From: a virus
IMG/VR virus record: IMGVR_UViG_3300009086_000127
Coordinates: 1 to 20,003 of that record
Strand: one strand, 5' to 3'
Length of the DNA: 20,003 bases
Below the pieces are notes generated by a model. That model searched no databases, had not been told where the DNA came from, and saw only the letters and a program-made list of their open reading frames with translations. The translations under genes and the position numbers were made by a program. This document shows, piece by piece, positions 4-19,858 of the stretch (within the stretch, counting starts at the first letter, position 1; every line of letters begins with the position of its first letter).

Positions 4-561
4 TTAAGCATCAGAAACCCTTTGCGCCGTGTTCAGAATGTCTTTCTCTGGGTTCAGCGGGAAAAGGTACTTCGCCATCACCTTGATGCCGTTTACGTTG
101 TGAGCGTCGAATTTGGCGCCCCACCACTCCGGCGGCTTGACCGTTACATGAACGTTTGTGCCGTCGTCGAAAGTCTTGTTAGCCAGACCGCAGTAGACGA
201 CGAAGAAAATCATCTTCTTCGCTTTACTAAAGATGGTCGATAGGGTGACGTCTATCTCATCCTCTGGCACATGCTCCAGAACGTCAGTACAGATCACCGC
301 ATCCACTAAATCCTTCGTTAGGTAGTCATACCTTGGCACCGCTGGGTCGTATAGGTACAGCCCATGATCCTCAATGCCGATTAAGTTGTGGAACTTATAC
401 CGACGATACATTTGCGCCTTGCCGCAACCGTAATCTAGCATCGTTCGACAATTTAACCCCTTGATCGCCCGCTCTAAGGTCTCCACATAGCCAAACCTAA
501 GCGAATTACCAGCGAAGTGACCGTCTTTGTGCATTTGCACATATATATCTTTGTAGCGCAT
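4..561 (-). CDS. Class I SAM-dependent methyltransferase
   Basis: A 185-residue protein with the signature of a Rossmann-fold methyltransferase. The glycine-rich SAM-binding motif MLDYGCGKAQ is at residues 41-50. An acidic post-motif stretch (IGIEDHG, YDPAVPRYD) follows at about 61-79, and DAVICTDVLEHVPEDEI at 87-103 matches the motif IV region of the type 11/23 families. The substrate cannot be read from the sequence. The ATG directly follows the TAA of the upstream GT29-like gene (TAAATG), so the two are probably translationally coupled. It is the last of three enzyme genes behind the giant repeat protein, so it may methylate a sugar or a virion protein (inference). A nucleic-acid methyltransferase is less likely, as I see no NPPY- or PC-type catalytic motif. 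Fold call is firm, role is open. Confidence 0.85.
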   Translation of the reverse strand: MRYKDIYVQMHKDGHFAGNSLRFGYVETLERAIKGLNCRTMLDYGCGKAQMYRRYKFHNLIGIEDHGLYLYDPAVPRYDYLTKDLVDAVICTDVLEHVPEDEIDVTLSTIFSKAKKMIFFVVYCGLANKTFDDGTNVHVTVKPPEWWGAKFDAHNVNGIKVMAKYLFPLNPEKDILNTAQRVSDA

Positions 562-1263
562 TTAAAAATTCCCGTACTTTGAGCCGTTTATAAACTCCGG
601 TCTTAGGTCGGATAGCTTTATCCACTCCAGAAGCCCAGAGGATTCAAACGCCTGCGCCACGGCGACTTCTTGGTCGTGGTCGTGCGTCTCCGCTTTGCCA
701 GTAGAAATCGGAAGATGCCACGAACTTGGCTCGTAGTCACCCCCTCGCATCTTATTTGTCTTCTTGGCGAAAAAATCAAAGCCGATGATGGTTAGCGACT
801 TTTGGGTCGCGACCTTCTCGATAAAAAACTTCATCGCCCATATACCTACAGAAAATCGGTGAGCGTCCTTGTCGCCATCATTGATACCGTGGCAAGACAT
901 GAAATCCAGAATCTCACTGTCTTCAAACATCGCCAAATAGTCTTTTAAATTCGGGTTGATCGCCAAAGGCTTGGTGACGTGTAGACGCGCCCTATTAAAC
1001 AAAATCTTGGCGTCTTTGGTCATGTCTCGGAACTTAGGGTAGTTCAGCATATCAACCCTAAACCCTCCCGTGACCCAGACGTCCAGCTTCTTACCGATGG
1101 CGATCGCCTGCCGATCGTCATAATCGATTCCGCGACCGAACCTGACGACAACATCAAAGCCGTCGATGAGCGCCGCGTTCTCGTAATTCATCATTTCGGT
1201 CGAGTTTCCGACCAAAAGCACTTTTTTACCGGCGATGTAAGCCCGAAAGCTCTCGATGTCCAT
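562..1263 (-). CDS. Glycosyltransferase family 29-like (sialyltransferase-like) protein
   Basis: A 233-residue protein whose layout follows the GT29 sialyltransferase pattern. An L-motif-like N-terminus has KKVLLVGNST at 13-22 and FDVVVRFGRG at 36-45. An S-motif-like segment has RFSVGIWAM at 136-144 leading into LTIIGFDFF at 157-165. A VS-like HDHDQE lies at 194-199 with a C-terminal helix. Known family members transfer CMP-activated sialic or related nine-carbon sugars. Bacterial and phage relatives of this shape are often called GT29 without a proven donor, so the sugar here is unknown. Its ATG overlaps the TGA of the upstream GT-B-like gene by one base (TGATG), so translation is probably coupled. 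Together with its neighbours it suggests synthesis or attachment of a glycan, perhaps on the adjacent Thr/Asn-rich protein (inference). Confidence 0.72.
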   Translation of the reverse strand: MDIESFRAYIAGKKVLLVGNSTEMMNYENAALIDGFDVVVRFGRGIDYDDRQAIAIGKKLDVWVTGGFRVDMLNYPKFRDMTKDAKILFNRARLHVTKPLAINPNLKDYLAMFEDSEILDFMSCHGINDGDKDAHRFSVGIWAMKFFIEKVATQKSLTIIGFDFFAKKTNKMRGGDYEPSSWHLPISTGKAETHDHDQEVAVAQAFESSGLLEWIKLSDLRPEFINGSKYGNF

Positions 1264-2135
1264 CAGAGATACTTGTTTTTGTACTTCTTGCGAACAATCG
1301 CGATGTAGTCGAGATAGTTGACCAGCTTCTCTTTCCAGTCATCGTCAATCAGCGGGCAAAAGATGCCGGACTTGTAGCTATTGAACGTCCGGTTCACCCA
1401 AGCCGTGGGGTCATCTTCTTTGAAAAGATATCGGTTGATGTGATAGAACGATCCCTCGGGCGTCTTGTGATAGACGTCGATCGGCTCTAGTTGCTTGCCT
1501 AGGGCGGTCGCGTACATCGCCGACTCACTGATCACCGAGCTATAAATGATCTCAGACTGCGCCAGCAACGTGTAAAGGTCGTCGTTGCGGTGCAAGACGT
1601 TGTCTTCCTTAAATAAGTCCATGATCTCGCCGACCAGCTTGTGGGTGGTTAGCGGATGGGGTTTGATCCACACGTCGCTACCGTGGGTGTCGCGGATATA
1701 TTTCAGCTTGTTTAGGCAAACGCGCTCTTTCAGCTTGTTGGAGCCGGGCAAAACAACGATTGCTCTTCGCGCCTTCTTTTGTTCTGTTGAGCGCCTGTCT
1801 TTGTACTTGTTGGCGTTCTTTTCGTTGATATTTTTGCGGAAAAACTCGATGTAGTCGTGCTTTACCGTTGCGTCATCCTTCCACGCCTCCTCCATCTGGG
1901 TCACTCGAAGCTCTAGCTGTAGCGGGTGGATGGTGATGCAATTGGCGTATTCGGTGTAGTTCAGAGTCTTGAAATACGGCAATTCGCGGGCAATGACGTC
2001 GTAGTCATATTCAAACGGGTATTCCCGCATGGTTTTGTCGAAAAACTCCTCGAACTCCTTGGTCCACGACAGCATGTCGCTTTTTTCAATATCCCCAATG
2101 CGGTCTTTCCGCTCCTGAACGTTGTTCATCTTCAT
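1263..2135 (-). CDS. Capsule polysaccharide/GT-B-like glycosyltransferase
   Basis: A 290-residue protein. The C-terminal half resembles the nucleotide-sugar-binding half of GT-B enzymes of the capsule-polysaccharide, CDP-glycerol-transferase or polysialyltransferase type: RAIVVLPGSNK at 124-134, WIKPHP at 156-161, and the motif SSVISESAMYATALGK at 199-214 (Ser-x-Ser-E-A-x-x-x-G). The N-terminal 120 residues are charged and I do not recognise them. Start choice is clear: GGAG at 2146-2143 sits 7 bases before the ATG at 2135, just after the TAA of the 899-residue repeat protein. Acceptor and donor are unknown. Immediate linkage to the repeat protein suggests that protein, or the glycan on it, as substrate. 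A divergent polysaccharide-processing enzyme of the same fold is the alternative. Confidence 0.62.
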   Translation of the reverse strand: MKMNNVQERKDRIGDIEKSDMLSWTKEFEEFFDKTMREYPFEYDYDVIARELPYFKTLNYTEYANCITIHPLQLELRVTQMEEAWKDDATVKHDYIEFFRKNINEKNANKYKDRRSTEQKKARRAIVVLPGSNKLKERVCLNKLKYIRDTHGSDVWIKPHPLTTHKLVGEIMDLFKEDNVLHRNDDLYTLLAQSEIIYSSVISESAMYATALGKQLEPIDVYHKTPEGSFYHINRYLFKEDDPTAWVNRTFNSYKSGIFCPLIDDDWKEKLVNYLDYIAIVRKKYKNKYL

Positions 2136-2147
2136 AGAAGTGCTCCA

Positions 2148-4847
2148 TTAAGCAAAAAAGTCGGTCTGTCTGTTCGTGCTGAACTCGGTGCTAGTGTTCC
2201 ACGTCGTGATCGTGTCAACGGTTGTGTTGCGCTGAGTGCTTGTGTTCCAAACCGTCGTTGTATCTCGATTCGTTGCGGTGTCAAAAACTGTATTGTAGTT
2301 AGAGACTGTGTCTCGGTTTGTGCCTCTAGAGGTAGAAGTAAGCCATGCCGTGATTGTTGCGACGACCGTCTCTGTATCGAATAGCGTGTTGTAGTTTGAT
2401 GTGGTTGATTTCGCCGTGATTCGATCTGTGCCAGTGTTGAAGACGGTGTTTGTGTCGACGACGGTTGTGGTGTCGAAATTGGTGACATAGACAGAATTTG
2501 TGCCCCGAGTGGTAAGGCGGCTAGTTCCTGTGATGAATTCCGTGAGCGTAGAGCGCTCTGTTTGCGTGTTGAATATTGTGTCGTAGTTGGTGTTTGTGAG
2601 CCGGTCTGTCTGGCGATTCGTTCCTGTGGCGAAATCCGTAATTGTGTTGCGATTTGTGACCGTGTTAAATAATGTGTCGTAGTTCGTGTTTGTGGCACGT
2701 CCTGTGATGCGATCTGTATTTGTGTTGAAAACGGTCTGCGTATCGCGATTTGTGTTCGTGTTGAAAACTGTAGTGTAAATTGTGCTCGTGGCGCGATTTG
2801 TGTTGAAGTTGGTCGACGTGAGCCAGACAGTTGTCGTGTCTCGATTTGTGTTGAAAAAGGTCGTTGTATTGAACGACGTAGTGGTGGCTCGGTTTGTGTT
2901 GAAGTTGGTCGCTGTGAGCCGAGAAGTTGCGGTGTCTCGGTTTGTTGATCGAGTTGTATTTGTGTTCCAAACTGTCAGCGTAGACCGGCTCTCTGCGGAA
3001 TCGTAATTTGTGTTGAAAACGGTGTTCGTAGTGTACGCCGTTGTAGTGTCTCTGTTTGTGTTCGTGTTAAATACTGTGTCTGTAGACCGGCTCTCGTCTG
3101 AATTGTAATTGGTGTTAAATACCGTGTTTGTAGTCCGGCTCTCTGCTGTATTGATGTTGGTAGCCGTTAGCCAAGATGTCGTCGTATTGCGGCTCTCGTC
3201 TGAGTTGTAATTGGTATTAAAGACCGTGTTCGTAGCTCTAGACTCCGCTGTGTTTATGTTCGTGGCAGTAAGCCACGATGTAGTGGTGCTTCTACTCTCT
3301 GCGGAGTTGTAGTTAGTGTTAAACACCGTGTTTGTTGTTCGGCTCTCTGCGGTGTTCAGGTTGGTTGACGTCAGCCAAGCCGTCGTAGTGCTTCGGCTTT
3401 CTGCCGTGCTTCTACTTTCAATCGTGCTGGCGCTCGTTGCCCAGACGGTATTCGTAACCACCGAAACCACGCCAGCGTAGTCGTAGGGCGTCCAGTAGTT
3501 GGTCGCGACGTAGTCTTGATAGTAAGACGTCGTGTTCCGGTTAGTGTTGAATACCGTAGTCGTAGAGTATGAAGTCGTCGTCGAATAAGCCGTAGTGGTG
3601 CTCCGGCTTGTTGTGGTGTTAAAGACGGTGTTTGTGGTGTATGCGGTTGTTGTGTCCCGATTGGTAGACCGATTTGTGTTTGTGACGTAAGCGGTGGTCG
3701 TGCTTCGGTTTGTCGTGGTGTTAAATACCGTGTTAGTTGTATAGGCTGTCGTCGTATCCCGATTGGTGCTTCGGTTTGTATTGGTAACGTAGGCGGTCGT
3801 CGTGCCCCTGCTGGTCGCCGTATTAAAGACCGTGTTAGTTGTGTATGCGGTAGTTGTGTCTCTATTGGTCGACCGATTGGTATTGGTGACGTAGGCGGTA
3901 GTTGTGTTTCTGTTGGTCGCAGTCGCCCAAACTGTATTTGTCGATCTGCTCTCTGCCGTGTCTCGGTTGGTTAAGCGGTTGGTGTTGGTGACGTAGTTTG
4001 TCGTCGTATTGATATTGGTCGCGGTTAGGTAGACCGTATTGAACACCGTGTTAGTGTTCCAAGTCGTCGACGTATTAAACACCGTGTCATAGTTGGTGTT
4101 TGTCGCTCGGTTCGTGCCCGTCAGTCGGTTGGTGCCGAATATCGTATTAGTGACGCGACTGGTGTTCGTATTAAAGACCGTGTCGTAGTTCGTATTAGTT
4201 GCGCGGTCGGTAAGCCGAGAAGTTGCCGTCGCCCATACCGTGTTTGTAGTCCGGTTGGTGGCTGTCGGGAACGTAGTCGTATAAACCGTCTCAGTAGCTC
4301 GATCGGTGTTCCGATTGGTGCCGGTAGCGAATGCCGTGTTCGTCGACCGGTTTGTGATCGTGTTAAACAGCGTATCGTAAACCGTAGACGTTGCTCGGTT
4401 GGTGTTGCGGTTGGTCGAGGTGAGCCAAGCCGTCGTCGTGTTCCGGTTGGTTAGCGTATCGAAGTTGGTCGAATACTGGGTTCCGGTTAGGATGTTGGTC
4501 ACCCGAGACGTGCCAGTCAACCAAGCGGTTGCCGTTGTGCGATTGGTCGAGGTGTTGAATGCGGTCGTGTAGTCGGTCGTGGTCGCGATGTTAGTGTTGC
4601 GAGAGGTGCCCGTAATAAACGCCGTATTTGTTAGGCGGTTGGTCGCTGTATTAAATACAGTGTTAAACGCAGTATTTGTTAGGACGTTGGTATTGCGGGA
4701 GGTGCTGGTCTGCCAGATCGTGTTTGTAACGCGATTGGTAGCCGTGACAAAGCTAGTGACCCACGTCGTGCTGGTGACGCGCTGAGTGGCTGTGTCGCGG
4801 TTGGTTAGGTATTCTGTAATCCACCGCTTTATTTCCCACATCCACAT
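2148..4847 (-). CDS. Giant Thr/Asn-rich periodic repeat protein, probable tail fibre or surface adhesin
   Basis: An 899-residue protein. After a Trp-rich start (residues 1-14) nearly every second residue is Thr, Arg or aromatic. The units are hexads T-x-T-x-(F/W/Y or R)-x and tetrads T-x-(R/F/Y)-x. All unit lengths are even, so one face of an extended strand would carry Thr/Thr/aromatic/Thr/Thr/Arg and the other mostly Asn, Ala, Ser, Val, Leu. Units combine into 32-residue super-repeats at 73-232 and 671-862 and 34-residue ones at 317-418 and 487-588. One non-repetitive Tyr-rich insert lies at 439-464, almost at the centre. There is no Cys and very little Gly or Pro. It follows the fibre-like 325-residue protein by 6 bases; GGGTGA lies 6 bases before its ATG. 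A beta-structured fibre shaft is likely (inference). I do not recognise a family. Confidence 0.6.
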   Translation of the reverse strand: MWMWEIKRWITEYLTNRDTATQRVTSTTWVTSFVTATNRVTNTIWQTSTSRNTNVLTNTAFNTVFNTATNRLTNTAFITGTSRNTNIATTTDYTTAFNTSTNRTTATAWLTGTSRVTNILTGTQYSTNFDTLTNRNTTTAWLTSTNRNTNRATSTVYDTLFNTITNRSTNTAFATGTNRNTDRATETVYTTTFPTATNRTTNTVWATATSRLTDRATNTNYDTVFNTNTSRVTNTIFGTNRLTGTNRATNTNYDTVFNTSTTWNTNTVFNTVYLTATNINTTTNYVTNTNRLTNRDTAESRSTNTVWATATNRNTTTAYVTNTNRSTNRDTTTAYTTNTVFNTATSRGTTTAYVTNTNRSTNRDTTTAYTTNTVFNTTTNRSTTTAYVTNTNRSTNRDTTTAYTTNTVFNTTTSRSTTTAYSTTTSYSTTTVFNTNRNTTSYYQDYVATNYWTPYDYAGVVSVVTNTVWATSASTIESRSTAESRSTTTAWLTSTNLNTAESRTTNTVFNTNYNSAESRSTTTSWLTATNINTAESRATNTVFNTNYNSDESRNTTTSWLTATNINTAESRTTNTVFNTNYNSDESRSTDTVFNTNTNRDTTTAYTTNTVFNTNYDSAESRSTLTVWNTNTTRSTNRDTATSRLTATNFNTNRATTTSFNTTTFFNTNRDTTTVWLTSTNFNTNRATSTIYTTVFNTNTNRDTQTVFNTNTDRITGRATNTNYDTLFNTVTNRNTITDFATGTNRQTDRLTNTNYDTIFNTQTERSTLTEFITGTSRLTTRGTNSVYVTNFDTTTVVDTNTVFNTGTDRITAKSTTSNYNTLFDTETVVATITAWLTSTSRGTNRDTVSNYNTVFDTATNRDTTTVWNTSTQRNTTVDTITTWNTSTEFSTNRQTDFFA
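2262..2837 (-). repeat. Six tandem 96-bp repeats (32-residue units), C-terminal block
   Basis: Residues 671-862 of the 899-residue protein divide into six units of exactly 32 residues starting at 671, 703, 735, 767, 799 and 831, with the same 6-6-4-6-4-6 module order as the N-terminal block. Conservation decays towards the C-terminus, where Val, Asp and Glu replace some Thr and Arg. Confidence 0.82.
3084..3389 (-). repeat. Three near-identical 102-bp repeats (34-residue units, ESR type)
   Basis: Residues 487-588 of the 899-residue protein form three 34-residue units starting at 487, 521 and 555. Each has an AESR hexad, a TVFNTNYNS stretch and a second ESR hexad. The period equals that of the NRD-type block on the other side of the central insert, but the sequence class differs. 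Confidence 0.85.
3594..3899 (-). repeat. Three near-identical 102-bp repeats (34-residue units, NRD type)
   Basis: Residues 317-418 of the 899-residue protein hold three 34-residue units starting at 317, 351 and 385. They differ mainly near the end of each unit (for example TATSRG, TTTNRS, TTTSRS). Module order is shifted from the flanking 32-residue class by one extra two-residue step. The near identity suggests recent duplication or homogenisation by recombination. Confidence 0.85.
4152..4631 (-). repeat. Five tandem 96-bp repeats (32-residue units)
   Basis: Residues 73-232 of the 899-residue protein divide into five units of exactly 32 residues starting at 73, 105, 137, 169 and 201. Each unit has module order 6-6-4-6-4-6. 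The modules carry, in turn, an aromatic, Arg, a variable residue that is Arg in the later units, Tyr, Phe and Arg at the position before the last residue. Copies are diverged at the DNA level, while module length is kept without exception. Confidence 0.85.
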
Positions 4848-4853
4848 AGTTAA

Positions 4854-5831
4854 TCACCCAAAGTCGCCGATGTAATTGATTAGGATGGTGTTGGCATCCA
4901 CGACGAAATAGTTCACGGCGCTGATCGTATTAGCCGCCGTCTCTTGAACGATTGCCTCAGCTCTTGGCGTCTTGAACTCACTCGGGAAAGTGATCGAGTG
5001 ACCGCCGGTCGCGTTCTGTTTAAATACGATTGTGCCAGTCATTCCGACGTTTGTGGCGACATTGGACAAAGATAGGGTGGTGTTCCCTACCAGCGTAATG
5101 ATGAAGTTTTGCTCGTTAAAGTCCAGCGTCGTCGTGGCGGTAGATGACGCCGTCAGCGTGTTTTTGCTTTGGGCGGTGTCTGCCTTGTCACCCTGCGTCG
5201 CTGTGGCAAAAGCATTCGCGTCTAGGTTGGTCGATCGGACGAAAAGCGTCCCGTTTGATGCGTTGTTTACGACAAACGCGATCGGCAAGCTCAAGTCGGT
5301 GCCCGTCGGCTCAGTAGCCGTCAATGCGCCCGCAGTGGTCGAACTTGCATAAAGTATCGATCCAGCGCTAAAGCCTGAAAGGTCGATCTGTCTAATCTTG
5401 CCAAAATGCGAGACCTTGCCGTCGGCATCGTTGGCGATGTCCTCTGCCGTAACGCCTAGCATGTACTTGGCGCCTATGGTGCCATTGGCGATGAACTTGC
5501 CTACCGTGATTCGTCCAGAGGCGCCTATGGTTCCCGTCGCATAAACCACGGTGCCAGCGTCTATCTGTGCCCCAGAGTTATTGCGAACATGGTAGAAAAC
5601 GTCCTGCGCAAGATGCGCGGATATACCGTCGACCGATAGGTGTAGGGTGTCTTCGTCGGTATCCCAAGTTAGCGTCCCTTGGGTGCCCGTTCCGCCAGAT
5701 AGTTGAACAGACGCAAAGACAGGCGCGTCCCCCGACTCGTACTTGTCCGAGTTGAGGTTGGTGAAGTTAGCGTCTACCTCTGCATTTGTGAGAGGCGAAC
5801 CCTTGCCCGCCCGAGTTGTAATCGTCGACAT
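4854..5831 (-). CDS. Phage tail fibre/virion structural protein
   Basis: A 325-residue protein. Its N-terminus, with TRAGKGSPLTNAEVDANF at residues 6-23, is a motif I know from the start of many tailed-phage fibre proteins, followed by the common 'NLN-DKYE' continuation. The rest is rich in Gly, Thr, Ala and Val with beta-strand character, including DDTLHLSVDG-like and GTLFVRSTN-like strands, and ends in a hydrophobic strand pair. The ATG at 5831 is preceded by AGGG about 9 bases upstream, and a 20-base gap separates it from the previous gene. It is probably an adaptor or fibre exposed on the virion. Its 6-base spacing to the giant repeat protein suggests the two work together. Confidence 0.7.
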   Translation of the reverse strand: MSTITTRAGKGSPLTNAEVDANFTNLNSDKYESGDAPVFASVQLSGGTGTQGTLTWDTDEDTLHLSVDGISAHLAQDVFYHVRNNSGAQIDAGTVVYATGTIGASGRITVGKFIANGTIGAKYMLGVTAEDIANDADGKVSHFGKIRQIDLSGFSAGSILYASSTTAGALTATEPTGTDLSLPIAFVVNNASNGTLFVRSTNLDANAFATATQGDKADTAQSKNTLTASSTATTTLDFNEQNFIITLVGNTTLSLSNVATNVGMTGTIVFKQNATGGHSITFPSEFKTPRAEAIVQETAANTISAVNYFVVDANTILINYIGDFG

Positions 5832-5851: not shown

Positions 5852-6298
5852 TTAAGCGGCGTTAATGGTGATCGTCCAAGTGATTTGGAGAGTGTCGTCC
5901 GCCGCCTTGTTGACAACATCAAAGACGGTATGGCATAGCATGTCGCCACCGCTTGCGGCATTAAAAATGCCAGCTTCAACGACCGCGCCGGTGCCGGTGC
6001 CAGCCCCGAAATCGCCGACATAAGCCACCGAATTATTTGTTACCGTCGTGGATGTCAGGGAAACTCGTCCCAACTCACCGCCCAGAGCTGTATCTCCAGC
6101 GGCGGCGGCGGTGTTGACCGATCCGACTGCCATGTGAGACATCGCGGTAGCGGTGGCGTCCTTCATGCGTGAGGCAATAAATGCCAAACCGGTATTTACG
6201 ACAATGTTATAGACCTTGCGCTCGTCCTTTAGGTTGCCATTGCTGTCGCGCAAGACGACCGATAATGTTCCAACCAGATTGAGGTTTTCTTTAATCAT
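5852..6298 (-). CDS. Phage virion structural protein, conserved small beta-rich type
   Basis: A 148-residue protein beginning MIKENLNLVGTLSVVLRDSNG. It contains GLAFIASRMKDA at about 37-48, MSHMAVGS at 53-60, a central LGRVSLTS segment, VVEAGIFNAASGG at 105-117 and a terminal strand LQITWTITINAA. This order (induction of a free 'GL-fIasR', an 'aiG-gt' strand, an 'EaGIF' strand, a closing beta strand) is typical of small structural proteins next to phage fibre genes, but no function has been fixed for them to my knowledge. The ATG overlaps the preceding TGA (ATGA) and has AGGAG 7 bases upstream. Confidence 0.6.
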   Translation of the reverse strand: MIKENLNLVGTLSVVLRDSNGNLKDERKVYNIVVNTGLAFIASRMKDATATAMSHMAVGSVNTAAAAGDTALGGELGRVSLTSTTVTNNSVAYVGDFGAGTGTGAVVEAGIFNAASGGDMLCHTVFDVVNKAADDTLQITWTITINAA

Positions 6299-7512
6299 GT
6301 GAATGCTCCTGAATATCCGACATAGTCCTCGGCGAAATAGTCAAAACTACAGTAATTTTGACCTCGATACGTACCAGCGCTAGAGGCAGAGCCTAAGTCT
6401 GGTAGGTTCTTTTGTGGCGATTTTACTAAAATTTGACTAATCGAACTACTGTCCGATCTAGCCGTAAGAAAAGACAGCGCGAGGCTGTCCGCCGCGTCCG
6501 GTGCTTCACTAAGCGCCTTCCTAAGATCATACGCTAACGCATCAATTGATGTTGGATTTTCTACACGAACCGCGCCAAAAGCGATCGACGCAAAATCCGA
6601 TGCGCCTGAGCCTTCTCCTAACAACCTACCCCTTGCAAGAGAGGTGATGTCCTCCGATACCCCGACAGAACTGCTTAGAGCTTTAATCACGCTCTTATCC
6701 AGAGACTCGACAGCCTGCCCAGAGTCGCTAAATGGTCGGATATACGAAACAAGCAACCCGATCTGCTCGGATGCCCCAGTCGCGTCGGTAAAACCCTTAG
6801 CGACCGATAAGGCGACCTGTTGGCTTATGGCGCCAGCGTCTGCCAGTGCCTTGGTGACTTCAAAGGCGATGATCTGCGTAGCTGTCGGGTTCTCTGCCTC
6901 AGCCTTGCCAAAAGCCCGCTGGACGGCTTCTATGGCTCCGGTGCTGTCTTGATATTGCCTGACGTATGAAACGAGCCTGTATAGGCTCTCAGCCGCCTGC
7001 GTGTTGTTTTGCTTGATCTTGTGGAAGCTGATCTCTTGATCGTCCTCGATCGTCGCGGTGCCATCGACGTCGTCGGTAGCGGAAACAAAGTCCCTGATTA
7101 GCTTATTTACGAGAAAAATCGGGTCTGAGTCAGAGGCTGTAGCCGGATCAGCTAGGGTTTTCCCGAATAATATCGTGTCGCTATCTGTCGCCTGAGCGAA
7201 ATCCGGCGATATTTGCTTAATGAAAGAGATTGCCAGTTGGTCGGTTGAGTACCCGGCGTCCGATATTGATTTGGAGAGATATAACGCCAATGACTCGGCG
7301 ACAGCCGATTCGTCCGCTCTTGTCTTGGCGAATTCTAGTAAGACCTGATCTACGGTAGCCGATATCGAATCGGACTGTCTGGTCAAGTACAGATTAAGAA
7401 AATCACCAAGCTCCGCCGCCAGCTTCAGGTAATCGACCTCGGTCGACAGCTTCAGGTCATCACTTCGGACCCCAGCCTTTAACGCATTGAAAATGACGTT
7501 ATAGAGGTTCAC
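6295..7512 (-). CDS. Virion structural protein with ~19-20-residue repeats
   Basis: A 405-residue protein built from about 15-18 imperfect repeats. Each has an acidic start (SDA, TDA, ADP, TDS), then A/S-x-(E/D/Q)-x-(L/I), then a short hydrophobic stretch ending in Lys. Clear copies run from about residue 45 to 360, such as DESAVAESLALYLSK and DAGAISQQVALSVAK. The C-terminus NYCSFDYFAEDYVGYSGAF is unlike the repeats and looks like a conserved assembly tail. The start is GTG, overlapping the preceding stop (GTGA), with GGGGG 8 bases upstream. It is placed among fibre and surface proteins, so a rod or spacer in the virion is the best guess. Similar repeat proteins occur in aquatic phages, as far as I know without a defined role. 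Confidence 0.55.
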   Translation of the reverse strand: MNLYNVIFNALKAGVRSDDLKLSTEVDYLKLAAELGDFLNLYLTRQSDSISATVDQVLLEFAKTRADESAVAESLALYLSKSISDAGYSTDQLAISFIKQISPDFAQATDSDTILFGKTLADPATASDSDPIFLVNKLIRDFVSATDDVDGTATIEDDQEISFHKIKQNNTQAAESLYRLVSYVRQYQDSTGAIEAVQRAFGKAEAENPTATQIIAFEVTKALADAGAISQQVALSVAKGFTDATGASEQIGLLVSYIRPFSDSGQAVESLDKSVIKALSSSVGVSEDITSLARGRLLGEGSGASDFASIAFGAVRVENPTSIDALAYDLRKALSEAPDAADSLALSFLTARSDSSSISQILVKSPQKNLPDLGSASSAGTYRGQNYCSFDYFAEDYVGYSGAFT

Positions 7513-9419: not shown

Positions 9420-9902
9420 TTAGGATTTAAGGATAGAGGTTAGACGCGCAAGTGCGTCCAATACTTCAGGCTCTGCCTTCTCTCCTGCATCCCGCAGAGA
9501 TAGCGCCTTGGCGACGGCGGATGCCGCGACCTTCGCTTCGGATCGGGATAAACTTCCTGCGTCTCGCAGTAATTCTTCCCATTCCCTGACGGTACGATCC
9601 GCACCCTTTACCGCTGATACCCGTGCGCGAGGGTTCATTGGAAAAGTGACCGCACTAATCTCTAAAAGATCGACCTCTTTGAGTAGGCGGCGCTTGCCCT
9701 TCTCGTCGTAGTCCATTCCTTTAGCGTCAACTCGATAACCGATAGACAGCCCGTCTAGGGCGCCCATTTTCATTAGTTCGTACACCTCACGACCGCGCTG
9801 TGTGCCCATAGCCAAGCGTCCTTTGACCTTGAGTCCACGAGAGTCCTCTAGGATTTCGTCAAAAACGCCGATAGGCTCGTCGGAGCGGTGTTGATATAGC
9901 AA
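9420..9902 (-). CDS. Prohead protease, C-terminal catalytic part (continues upstream in the same frame)
   Basis: A 160-residue open segment beginning at TTG 9902, carrying the conserved core of the HK97-type prohead protease. It has LYQHR with the expected catalytic His at residue 5, PIGVFDEILED, GLKVKGRLAMGTQRGREVY, the expected nucleophile Ser in GALDGLSIGYRV at about 48-59, and DLLEISAVTFPMNPRARV, the usual final core strand. A helical tail follows, as is common. The frame is the same as that of the 9936-10289 segment: exactly twelve codons separate this TTG from the TAA at 9938-9936, and they read SIASRGAKGVK, the normal family sequence before the His. So this is the second part of one gene split by a single stop. 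AAGGG before the TTG encodes conserved AKGVK and may be a chance SD. Confidence 0.88.
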   Translation of the reverse strand: MLYQHRSDEPIGVFDEILEDSRGLKVKGRLAMGTQRGREVYELMKMGALDGLSIGYRVDAKGMDYDEKGKRRLLKEVDLLEISAVTFPMNPRARVSAVKGADRTVREWEELLRDAGSLSRSEAKVAASAVAKALSLRDAGEKAEPEVLDALARLTSILKS

Positions 9903-9935
9903 TTTGACGCCCTTGGCGCCTCTGCTAGCAATTGA

Positions 9936-9938
9936 TTA
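9936..9938 (-). other. In-frame ochre (TAA) codon inside the prohead protease gene
   Basis: Translated through the TAA, the frame gives GAFT-stop-SIASRGAKGVKLLYQHR, a continuous match to the HK97 protease consensus, where Lys normally stands at the stop position. AAA to TAA is a single base change. The codon is therefore a nonsense mutation, a sequencing or assembly error, or a suppressed or read-through codon. Genome-wide recoding of TAA is unlikely because other genes here end in TAA at the expected length. Confidence 0.85.
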
Positions 9939-10289
9939 GGTAAAAGCGCCGGAGACGACGACGTCATCGCCTAGGTCTTTATTGCCGAAAATAGAGCCAT
10001 ATCCGGTAAATGTTCCGGTTTCGTCGCCAGATTCAGCCTTGATCTCTGCGGCGACGTCAAAAGAGCCGGTCACAAAGATGTCTCGCTTTTGGCTTTCGTT
10101 TAGCTCGTCGAGGTCTTGGTATGTATCTGTCATCTGTGGTTCCTCATTGGATTTTCGGAAGCTACCGAGACAAACCGCGACCCTCTGGTCTTGGTCGGGA
10201 TAGTCAGACTGCATTGTAGCGTTAGCCATGCAACGGGTCATAAAGACTGACTCTGACTCTCCCGATTTGGGTTTAGGTATTGGCATCAT
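9936..10289 (-). CDS. Prohead protease, N-terminal part with small N-terminal domain
   Basis: A 117-residue segment. Residues 2-47 (MPIPKPKSGESESVFMTRC, then DYPDQDQRVAVC) form a small conserved phage domain often found fused to or beside head proteins. Residues 53-117 include the first protease strands, GTFTGYGSIFGNKDLGDDVV followed by SGAFT, and stop at TAA where the family normally has Lys-Ser. Two starts compete at the 5' end. The ATG at 10286 (giving MPIPKPK) fits the family and sits 5 bases after GGGGG; the ATG at 10289 is only 2 bases from it. An internal ATG at 10133 (MTDTYQ) has GAGG 8 bases upstream and could give a protease without the small domain. The segment alone lacks all catalytic residues. 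Confidence 0.82.
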   Translation of the reverse strand: MMPIPKPKSGESESVFMTRCMANATMQSDYPDQDQRVAVCLGSFRKSNEEPQMTDTYQDLDELNESQKRDIFVTGSFDVAAEIKAESGDETGTFTGYGSIFGNKDLGDDVVVSGAFT

Positions 10290-10329: not shown

Positions 10330-10518
10330 TCAACCGCCCGAAGGAGTCTCTAGCAAAAATATGACTTCCTCTATGTCGCCGATATATGGCTCCATATCGT
10401 CACCCCATTTACTCATTAACTCTCTTGCCTTCTTGATGTCCTCGGGCGAGCCACGATCGTCAGAAAGTAGCGCAGTGACCTCATCCAATAGTAAAAAAAT
10501 CTGATCGTCAGTAAGCAT
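10330..10518 (-). CDS. Small acidic protein, candidate immunity partner of the MuF-metallopeptidase
   Basis: A 62-residue protein with 16 Asp/Glu against 5 Lys/Arg, mostly helical in appearance (DDQIFLLLDEVTALLSDD, then SPEDIKKARELMSKWG and YIGDIEEVIFLLE). It starts at ATG 10518, 11 bases inside the end of the MuF-metallopeptidase gene, with GGAG 10 bases upstream. I do not recognise a family. A short, very acidic protein overlapping the end of a toxin-like gene fits the usual place and size of an immunity protein, but a head-assembly accessory is equally possible. A sampled 60-base row (10381-10440) has 42% GC, as low as the metallopeptidase part and lower than the MuF part. Confidence 0.6.
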   Translation of the reverse strand: MLTDDQIFLLLDEVTALLSDDRGSPEDIKKARELMSKWGDDMEPYIGDIEEVIFLLETPSGG

Positions 10519-12091
10519 TTTCGATCAACTCCTTTATTATCTCAACAAAAGACGGGTCGACAATGTCTCTATTGCCATTAAAGTAGGCGGCGAAATTCTC
10601 GGCGAACCACTCTTTAGAATTAGTGTCCCCGTAACGCGATGGTGACATGCGGTTTTTTATTTTATCAATTCTGCTCTCTACGGGAGGTATATAGCCTCTA
10701 TACCTTCCGCGTCCTATCGTATCGTTCCATTTTTCCAGATCAACCTTATACATTTGGTGTACATGGTGCCCGAACTCGTGATAAACCGTAGACCGGAACC
10801 TCTCAAAACCGGCTTCCCTGTGTTCACTTACCGACCACTTTCTGCCCAATTTGCTTCTATACCAGTCGTTATGGTCCGGTTTCCATAGTGAATTAGGTAG
10901 ACCGCCGAAATGACCAGCGGCTCCTATGGCTCCTCTTGCACTCATGGATTGTTCATTAAATCCCATTACACCATCCCCCATAGTGGCGTTGGTTGTTTTA
11001 GAAGTCATCTTTCTCACGCCTCTCAAAGGCGGCACATTGAATAAGCGAGCTAGCTCTTCACAATCCTTAAGACATGCCGCAAGCGCCACCGAAACCTCGT
11101 CGCTGAACCTACTACTTCGACCCCATTCCTTGTTTGGATTACCTTTAAAACGCTGAGAGGTCGGATGGCGGGGGTCTTTTACTGAAGCCGCCATCATGTC
11201 GTCGATAATCTTTCGAGATTCCTTTGGACTGACGAATTCAACCTGAGAAACCGGCTTGAAAGCAAAATCTAGCTTAGGAGTCTCTGGCGCTGTCTGCGGT
11301 ATTGGTGCAACGGGCGAAGTCTGTGGTATTGGCGCGTCATCAAAGACTTGATCGTCCGGCTCTATGTAGATCAACACACATCGGCAATTGATAACGTTCT
11401 TTGGTCCGCCTCGGTAGTCTCCGGGGTATCTCATCGAATGTCCCGTAGGCATTTGGAATTGATCATCTATGCCGACTTGGACTCCATTCATCACAGAATG
11501 ATGCGAGCGTGTACGAGCGTCATTAGTGGCTACCCACTGTTTGAGGCTATTCGGCGGCATGAATTCCTTGTTCATCTCATGGTTAGCCCATGAGCTAGCG
11601 TTATGAGTCTCGGTCCGAGCGATAACGGCGGAGCGTCTGGCTGAAAACTCCCGCCCTAGAGTCTCTATGTCTTTTGCGATTTGGCGACGGGAGGCGCCGC
11701 CTTCGATGCCTAGGGCGATCGTTTGGGCGACTCGTCTTTTGGTGTAAGCGTCTATCTCTACGACATTTTGGGCGCCACGCTCTCTGAGATATTGAGCGGA
11801 GAGGGTGGTAAAGTCGTATTTGACTCCACGTTGATCTAGCACCCTTTGACCAAAAGTTTTGACAACCTCCTCATAATGAGGACGCATAATTGAGTCTAGT
11901 TCGCCGGAAAACCCGGACATCACAGCCTCGGTGTTGCCAGCTTGAAAGCCCGCCGCCGCGCTTCTAAATTGCCGAGTGAATAGCCGTTTAAGCCGAGATT
12001 CCAGCTTTCTCTCGAAGCCTCGCTTGATACGGTCGATCTGAGCCGCCTCCTTGCGAACCTCTATTCGCCGTCTCTCGGCTTTCTGGAGCAT
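10508..12091 (-). CDS. MuF (SPP1 gp7-like) head morphogenesis protein fused to a zinc-metallopeptidase domain
   Basis: A 527-residue, two-part protein. Residues 1 to about 245 are the MuF minor head protein: a charged helical N-terminus, VAQTIALGIEGGASRRQIAKDI-type core at 121-142, ARTETHNASSWANHE at 158-172, DARTRSHHSVMNG at 191-203 and the closing CRCVLIYIEP at 236-245. A Pro-rich linker follows (APIPQT twice, 253-268). Residues about 280-527 hold a metallopeptidase-like domain with HEFGHH at 438-443 (HExxH zinc site) and EWFAENFAAYF at 494-504, where E498 is the likely third, gluzincin-type ligand. MuF proteins sit inside or at the head portal, and fusions of this kind are known as MuF polymorphic toxins of temperate phages. 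The start overlaps the portal stop as TAATG. Injected effector is the best inference; a structural peptidase is the alternative. Confidence 0.85.
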   Translation of the reverse strand: MLQKAERRRIEVRKEAAQIDRIKRGFERKLESRLKRLFTRQFRSAAAGFQAGNTEAVMSGFSGELDSIMRPHYEEVVKTFGQRVLDQRGVKYDFTTLSAQYLRERGAQNVVEIDAYTKRRVAQTIALGIEGGASRRQIAKDIETLGREFSARRSAVIARTETHNASSWANHEMNKEFMPPNSLKQWVATNDARTRSHHSVMNGVQVGIDDQFQMPTGHSMRYPGDYRGGPKNVINCRCVLIYIEPDDQVFDDAPIPQTSPVAPIPQTAPETPKLDFAFKPVSQVEFVSPKESRKIIDDMMAASVKDPRHPTSQRFKGNPNKEWGRSSRFSDEVSVALAACLKDCEELARLFNVPPLRGVRKMTSKTTNATMGDGVMGFNEQSMSARGAIGAAGHFGGLPNSLWKPDHNDWYRSKLGRKWSVSEHREAGFERFRSTVYHEFGHHVHQMYKVDLEKWNDTIGRGRYRGYIPPVESRIDKIKNRMSPSRYGDTNSKEWFAENFAAYFNGNRDIVDPSFVEIIKELIENAY

Positions 12092-18801: not shown

Positions 18802-19011
18802 ATGTCTAAAAAGTGCTGTTTTTGCGGAGTCATCCACCCTCATGGTGGGATAAAAAGGCTCTTTGTCTCGTCCTCAAAAGAGATGGTCGGGTTCTGCTCG
18901 CCTTGTGGAGAGAGGATCATAATGACCAATCCAATAACCAATGAAGAGATAACCATTTCGTCGCTTTACGAGCGATCGAGTCAGACTCAGGAGACAAACA
19001 ATGATGACTGA
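18802..19011 (+). CDS. Small zinc-ribbon protein
   Basis: A 69-residue protein with an N-terminal CCFC pair (Cys 4, 5, 7) and a second CSPC pair near 34-37, which together can bind one zinc ion. The rest is polar. The frame is open further upstream, but ATG 18802 is chosen because GAGGGG ends 6 bases before it and the Cys motif begins immediately. It lies 10 bases after the membrane protein gene and its end overlaps the start of the ADP-ribosylglycohydrolase gene by 11 bases, so the three genes form one operon. Function unknown. Confidence 0.62.
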   Translation: MSKKCCFCGVIHPHGGIKRLFVSSSKEMVGFCSPCGERIIMTNPITNEEITISSLYERSSQTQETNNDD

Positions 19012-19858
19012 AGACCAAGCCATTGGAATCTACGTAGGTATGGCTGTCGGAGACGCTGTGGGCGCCCCTCTGGAGTTTACCGACGGGGTAGGTGACTGGA
19101 GAGACGTTGAAATGTCTTATGGGGGCGTTCACGCCTGCGTTACCGGCGAATGGACCGACGATACCGCAATGGCTAGATGCCTAAGTGACGTCTATATCAA
19201 GAATGAGACGCTAAACGTCGCCATGCTGTATGAGAATTTTTCTAGGTGGATGTACAAAGGCACGTTTGGGACAAGGGACTATTGCTTTGATATTGGCAAC
19301 ACTTGCGCCAAAGCGATAACTCTTTGGGAGGTCGCCGGTAGAGAGGGGATACATGGCATAACTGATGCCGACAATCAAAGTAACGGTGGGATTACGCGCT
19401 TGGCTCCGGCTATCGTTCGGAACCACAAAGATATCAATATGGCTATGCACGACGCTTTATTACAGTCTCAAACGACCCACGCTAGCCCGACGTGCCTATA
19501 CATTGCCAGCCTGCTAACCCGCGACCTCTTCTATGGCGACATGCTCGAAGAGCACAAAGAGATAGCCATAAAGCACAAGGCGCAAAACTCAGGATGGGTG
19601 GTGGACACCTATTACTCGGCATGGCAATCGATTTTCTGCACCGATAATTTCGAGGATGCGATCAAGTGGTCTGTGCAGTACGGCGGGGACTCAGATACCG
19701 TAGCCGCTGTCGCGGGCATGATAGCGGGTCGAATCTATGGGATTGACGACATACCTAGCCGGTGGCGAAAGAATCTTATCGACTATGACAAGCTATACAT
19801 GGAGGCAGACACCATGTACTTTCTTGGTAATCGAGACAAAGAGTACGGCTTTTCCTAG
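19001..19858 (+). CDS. ADP-ribosylglycohydrolase (DraG/ARH family)
   Basis: A 285-residue enzyme with all hallmark motifs of the ADP-ribosylglycohydrolase family: GDAVGAPLEF at 17-26, EWTDDTAM at 50-57 (the TDD metal ligands), SNGGITRLAP at 127-136, HASPTC at 160-165 and YGGDSDTVAAVAGMIAG at 227-243 with the second metal site D230/D232/T233. Known members use two Mg or Mn ions to remove ADP-ribose from Arg, Ser or other acceptors, reversing ADP-ribosyltransferases. AGGAG lies 7 bases before ATG 19001; a second ATG follows at once. In a phage it could undo host ADP-ribosylation used as defence, or regulate host enzymes (inference). The gene appears intact. Confidence 0.92.
   Translation: MMTEDQAIGIYVGMAVGDAVGAPLEFTDGVGDWRDVEMSYGGVHACVTGEWTDDTAMARCLSDVYIKNETLNVAMLYENFSRWMYKGTFGTRDYCFDIGNTCAKAITLWEVAGREGIHGITDADNQSNGGITRLAPAIVRNHKDINMAMHDALLQSQTTHASPTCLYIASLLTRDLFYGDMLEEHKEIAIKHKAQNSGWVVDTYYSAWQSIFCTDNFEDAIKWSVQYGGDSDTVAAVAGMIAGRIYGIDDIPSRWRKNLIDYDKLYMEADTMYFLGNRDKEYGFS

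Follow-up and report, generated by a model that had tools for sequence, protein, structure and literature searches.

The window analysed here is a 20,003-base stretch of an IMG/VR virus record, in which an ORF encodes an 899-aa, threonine-rich (T-rich) protein. Genes for a terminase, a portal, a MuF-type protein, a protease, an HK97-type capsid and a fibre-like protein come before the T-rich gene, and the closest match of the capsid protein was Rhizobium phage RHph_X2_25 (44%). The T-rich gene, the segments into which its product was divided and the neighbouring genes were as follows:

4854..5831, minus strand: tail-fibre-like protein immediately upstream (phrog_9017, weak match)
2148-4847, minus strand: T-rich gene, 899 aa, ATG start (ORF call)
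4830..4847, minus strand: residues 1-6 (MWMWEI), the W-rich N-terminus, an unpaired overhang at the putative base end
3519..4829, minus strand: N-arm, residues 7-443, alternating T-x-T strand, predicted to run outward (pairing and alternation)
3477..3518, minus strand: putative central tip motif QDYVATNYWTPYDY, residues 444-457, which breaks the alternation; mirror axis at residue 453 (window 3489-3491)
2151..3476, minus strand: C-arm, residues 458-899, predicted returning strand, complementary to the N-arm at i+j = 906 (pairing)
1263..2135, minus strand: GTx, 290 aa, the gene that follows the T-rich gene on its downstream side; its predicted fold is most similar to that of beta-Kdo transferases (KrkA, WbbB, KpsC)
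562..1263, minus strand: 233-aa protein with the motif VLLVGNSTEMMN (by eye), conserved beside GTx in this subfamily
4..561, minus strand: SAM methyltransferase, third gene of the downstream cassette (phrog_24759, E 3.5e-25)

Elsewhere in the window, the head maturation protease (9420-10289, minus strand) was split into two ORFs (117 + 160 aa), which is a frameshift or an assembly error; the near-identical L001 has one intact 289-aa ORF. The MuF-type head morphogenesis protein (10508-12091, minus strand) carries a C-terminal HEFGHH zinc-peptidase-like motif, noted by eye, and a 405-aa protein without family match (6295-7512, minus strand) has degenerate internal repeats, with relatives in L003 and, weakly, in L041. 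Unlike the other recognised genes, the one for an ADP-ribosylglycohydrolase (19001-19858; phrog_6572, E 6.6e-42) is on the plus strand. The window ORFs searched included no recognisable gene for a tail tube or a tape measure, and the record may be incomplete.

The AlphaFold2 model of GTx had a pLDDT of 85.4, and its top ten Foldseek matches all belonged to the KpsC/WbbB/KrkA group of retaining beta-Kdo transferases (E 4e-6 to 1.6e-3), with TM-scores by query length of only 0.33-0.47. GTx thus resembles these enzymes in predicted fold but differs from them in the modest TM-scores and, for the window member, in having no Pfam match; Capsule_synth was matched weakly by five of 20 GTx members (best E 0.0008). 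In most loci, and in Caulobacter phages Lullwater and DCM, the T-rich gene is followed by a GTx homologue, while in the cultured Stenotrophomonas phage DLP6 the homologue is present away from the T-rich gene gp265; KVP40 carries a GTx-like gene, and a first GTx pattern recovered known loci only. Relatives in the window subfamily have a GT8 gene in the downstream cassette. The 233-aa protein had no Pfam or PHROG match, and its motif is one that we take to resemble that of a sialyltransferase (GT29). It is plausible that the GTx product glycosylates the fibre.

Composition and alternation of the T-rich protein

The protein contains 33.5% Thr, 15.1% Asn and 1.6% Gly, and neither Cys nor His. Threonines fell mostly on even positions, both in the N-arm (135 even versus 25 odd) and in the C-arm (121 versus 18), and Thr-Thr coincidences were depleted at lags 1 and 3 (66 and 28, versus about 100 ± 7 in shuffles) and numerous at lags 4 and 6 (147 and 205). 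One face of the alternation (face A) holds T, R, F, Y and W, and the other (face B) N, S, A, V, T and D. Identity autocorrelation was highest at 32 residues (0.404), followed by 64, 16, 96, 68 and 34 (0.351). An earlier reading made from the sequence only had described T-x-T alternation, a Thr/Arg/aromatic face opposed to a small or polar one, and super-repeats of 32 and 34 residues at exactly this position, all of which were borne out. Its claim that every module is 4 or 6 residues long was nearly right, since the spacing between non-Thr residues on the Thr face was mostly 6 or 4, although some spacings of 2 occurred. The mirror complementarity of the two halves, presented below, had escaped it.

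Mirror complementarity and residue pairing

Residue classes at positions i and t-i were scored for every t. The 899-aa protein proved to be a mirror-complementary palindrome, in which N-arm and C-arm residues pair at i+j = 906 following a simple code of Thr with Thr, Arg/Lys with aromatics and Asn with Asn; a proportion of 0.99 of its 68 basic residues lay opposite an aromatic. A few Ile/Val residues also stand opposite aromatics, and Asn, Ser and Ala occupy the other face. The window protein and two divergent homologues, of 711 and about 1007 aa, each had one dominant axis, and its offset was the same in all three (i+j = L+7, 1-based). Face-A mutual information at this axis was 1.11, 1.10 and 1.23 bits, against a background mean of 0.03-0.06 bits (sd 0.08-0.09) over 946-1538 axes. 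The signal was abolished by module shuffling: in 20 shuffles per protein, the maximum over all axes was 0.23, 0.17 and 0.35, compared with 0.96, 0.81 and 1.06 observed (all residues).

In the three proteins together, 205 of the 208 basic residues lay opposite an aromatic (0.99, 1.00 and 0.99 in the individual proteins), and moving the axis by 1 or 2 residues lowered the proportion from 0.99 to 0.00-0.04. T-T pairs (366 observed versus 158 expected) and F-R pairs (87 versus 8) were in excess, and R-T pairs were absent (0 versus 67). The window scan gave a short competing axis at 0.94, which comprised only 17 basic residues and was attributed to the internal repeats; there was no competitor at full arm length. 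No DNA inverted repeat underlies the palindrome (best identity 0.30).

The relatives found in IMG/VR comprised two near-identical records (L001 and L002) and four divergent ones (L003-L006), which share, where the respective part is present, an N-terminal MWMWxIxxWITE, a central Q(D/N)YVxTxYWTPxDY and a C-terminal STNRxTDFF. The W-rich N-terminus was conserved in L003 and L004, and a similar one occurs in L045 (MKWLWNKIDFW). The central motif has 443 residues before it and 442 after it in the window protein, and 349 and 348 in L004 (711 aa). L003 is an N-terminal half with 497 residues before the motif, and L005 is a 495-aa C-terminal half from the same metagenome. Their contig ends have 7 nt in common (GTTTATT, seen by eye; the script tested overlaps of at least 8 and reported none). 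The two halves were complementary at 0.99 over 496 pairs, so the code itself supports their belonging to one gene, which would encode 1007 aa with flanks of 497 and 496. Two further records retrieved with the YWTPxDY pattern, L011 and L012, corresponded to an unrelated phage gene.

Distribution among phages and two-gene forms

A degenerate DNA pattern for TxTxFNTxTxRxTxT yielded 47 stretches, many of which encode long T-rich proteins with different termini (33-48% Thr overall). A sharp single axis (z 10-22) was detected in L031, L039, L040, L046, L049, L056, L064, L041, L052, L030 and DLP6 gp265, and a weaker one in L059 and L048. The pairs at the axis numbered 725 in L031, 880 in L039/L040 and 879 in L046. 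The proportion of basic residues opposite an aromatic was 0.78-0.96 in further proteins where measured, with less perfect pairing in L041 (0.82) and L048 (0.75). The T-rich, proline-containing proteins of L044/L058 had no mirror axis (0.282, next 0.265) and are a useful negative control; in the small gp41-type proteins of Caulobacter phages the axis was ambiguous, being suggestive in Lullwater (0.77 of 13 basic residues). Eight of the records with an axis had no match to the window's terminase; as these records may be fragments, this is no more than a hint that the phages are not closely related. A scan of genome contigs gave seven matches, none of them a T-rich repeat protein, and these were regarded as chance.

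In L045 the two strands are encoded by separate T-rich genes, complementary over 722 antiparallel pairs, in which all but two of the 114 basic residues (112) face an aromatic; a region of about 150 aa of the first protein is looped out and is followed by a distal segment of 85 pairs (0.92 of 13 basic residues). Two-chain complementarity was weaker in L034 (0.61, next 0.36). In the two-chain form the T-rich genes are separated by a gene of about 370 aa (L045 3682-4812; L054 849-1940), whose product ends in LLKGGSDA or LMKGGSDG, respectively. In L030 (1915-7434) and DLP6 (AAY80_265; L069 8001-11867), a pair of mirror-complementary T-rich arms is fused to the C-terminal end of a T4-type baseplate wedge protein; the DLP6 paper lists the gp7 homologue of this phage as a baseplate wedge protein and nothing more.

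Mirrored indels and divergence at the axis

The arms of L046 and L056 are 84% identical, and their indels mirror each other: 76, 12, 14 and 32 residues at distances of 77, 165, 251 and 354 from the axis in the N-arm, and 76, 12, 14 and 16+16 at 77, 170, 252 and 324/358 in the C-arm. Between L031 and L064 the net difference was 32 in each arm (contig end left out). The symmetry was less clean in more diverged pairs (window/L003-5 and L031/L049); the sizes seen were 2, 4, 8, 12, 14, 16 and 76.

L046 and L039 were 66-72% identical within 40 residues of the axis and identical far away from it; identity was 0.66 within 15 residues of the axis and then 0.72, 0.94, 0.97, 0.99 and 1.00 outward. Other pairs followed the same trend with more noise, and L041 has about 100 aa of non-repeat sequence around the axis. 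This distribution would fit a receptor-binding tip under diversification at the midpoint.

Database, structure and literature searches

No Pfam, PHROGs, NCBIfam, PDB or literature match explains the T-rich protein, in agreement with the earlier reading, which recognised no described family with such a pattern. The best Pfam hit, DUF7842 (E 0.013), was below the cut-off; PHROGs and NCBIfam gave no match; and phmmer against PDB (E up to 10) matched neither the window protein nor those of L041 and L030. A tblastn search of T-rich proteins against phages gave no match, the probable reason being that such sequences are masked by the low-complexity filter. The open-access literature that was searched yielded no description of the protein, and no virion proteomics or micrograph evidence for a T-rich fibre was found. 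The AlphaFold2 model of the full-length monomer was uninformative (pLDDT 30.6), with repeated strands drawn at 271-414. Neither confident disorder nor membership of a routine, characterised fibre family, the outcomes that would have spoken against the earlier reading, was thus encountered.

Proposed fold and alternative explanations

The exact midpoint, the pairing code, the parity, the indels and the two-gene forms are explained together by an out-and-back hairpin, and we consider it very likely that the protein is a phage fibre formed by one giant antiparallel beta-hairpin of this kind, with a midpoint tip and a residue pairing code. The chain would leave the virion at the W-rich base and go outward as a T-x-T strand, turn at the conserved QDYVATGYWTPxDY tip, exactly at its midpoint, and pair residue for residue on its way back to the base. 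Register would be set by the code of one face, with Thr opposite Thr, Arg/Lys opposite Phe/Tyr/Trp (probably as cation-pi pairs) and few Ile/Val opposite aromatics, while small residues (Asn, Ser, Ala) would fill the other face. Since the two arms have to match, an indel would be tolerated mainly if the other arm changes by the same even length at the mirrored site. Receptor binding would be the task of the tip, which in other families is enlarged to a domain of about 100 aa. Fully extended, the fibre would measure about 145 nm (440 pairs x 0.33 nm); a lone two-stranded ribbon this long would need further association, and several hairpins may associate, perhaps three of them with six strands in all, like the trimeric T4 gp37 needle. 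The palindromic length, pairing code, mirrored indels, two-chain versions, tip divergence and downstream gene are what can be read from the sequences themselves; from them we infer a hairpin rather than a homodimer, a place in a virion fibre, receptor binding, the association of several hairpins and glycosylation of the fibre by the transferase-like downstream product.

An antiparallel homodimer, in which two full-length extended chains lie head to tail and residue i pairs with 906-i of the partner, with no turn and the ends at opposite poles, would give an equal mirror correlation, and the two-gene form of L045 is itself an antiparallel two-chain ribbon. Nevertheless, the alternation breaks at the axis or, in L041, is interrupted there by about 100 aa of globular sequence, and the axis is also where divergence is concentrated; both fit an exposed tip and not the middle of a rod, which makes the homodimer improbable.

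The remaining explanations appear less probable still. The sequence-only reading had foreseen a regular beta structure and a fibre role, which are supported, and had suggested a likeness to ice-binding beta-solenoids, which is not. A beta-solenoid of ice-binding or spike type, with T-x-T rows stacked on one flat face, would account for the spacing, for the 16-residue component of the 32-residue period and for the repeated strands of the low-confidence model, but coil length is not constant, indels come in many even sizes from 2 to 76, and a solenoid predicts neither the reversed-order complementarity of the halves, nor the fixed midpoint, nor complementarity between two genes; we regard it as very unlikely. 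Just as doubtful is a disordered, heavily O-glycosylated, mucin-like brush, its Thr-rich chain modified by the neighbouring enzymes. The Thr content of these proteins, the low pLDDT, the Kdo-transferase-like fold encoded directly downstream in most loci and the methyltransferase and GT8 of the window subfamily would all suit such a brush, which however requires no residue-by-residue register, parity or mirrored indels. Glycosylation is in any case compatible with a folded hairpin.

The T-rich proteins probably constitute a widespread phage class that evolves like a nucleic-acid stem: a simple side-chain code, with compensatory indels, would keep two strands (of one or two chains) aligned for hundreds of residues, in fibres that reach lengths of about 290 nm and bind the host with their midpoint tip. 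A pairing code that can be read in a natural protein and is kept by mirrored indels would be a rare case of long-range protein contacts readable from one sequence. It would show which part recognises the host in many fibre proteins of uncultured phages that are at present listed as hypothetical, provide a natural model for the design of very long two-strand fibres locked in register, and tie T-rich fibres to a dedicated downstream gene, predicted to be glycosyltransferase-like.

Comparison with known systems

Ice-binding T-x-T beta-solenoids, such as the Tenebrio molitor AFP, carry Thr rows two apart on one face. The window protein is alike in this spacing, but it has no Cys and no fixed coil (spacings of 6, 4 and 2, super-repeats of 32 and 34, many even indel sizes), its Thr residues are interleaved with Arg and aromatics, and its halves are mirror-complementary. 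Designed beta-hairpins such as trpzip and MAX1 (the latter reviewed in PMC12940918) are likewise two-stranded and take their register from cross-strand side-chain pairs. They span about 12-20 residues, whereas here hundreds of natural pairs occur and the arm lengths co-vary.

Each chain of the T4 gp37 needle is reported (Bartual et al. 2010) to reach the tip and come back. The needle is short, formed by a C-terminal part of the chain, with His-coordinated iron. An outward chain with an antiparallel return is suggested here by the mirror axis, the midpoint tip and the mirrored indels. The needle/tip of the T4 gp37 long tail fibre, like lambda Stf-type tips, is an antiparallel beta needle of six strands that ends in a receptor-binding head (PMC7291167, PMC9659904). 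In contrast, the hairpin of the T-rich proteins would take up almost all of the chain, which is up to about 1780 aa long; the window protein, lacking His, has no His-x-His metal-binding core, it follows a T-T and R-aromatic pairing code, and it has no sequence match in PDB.
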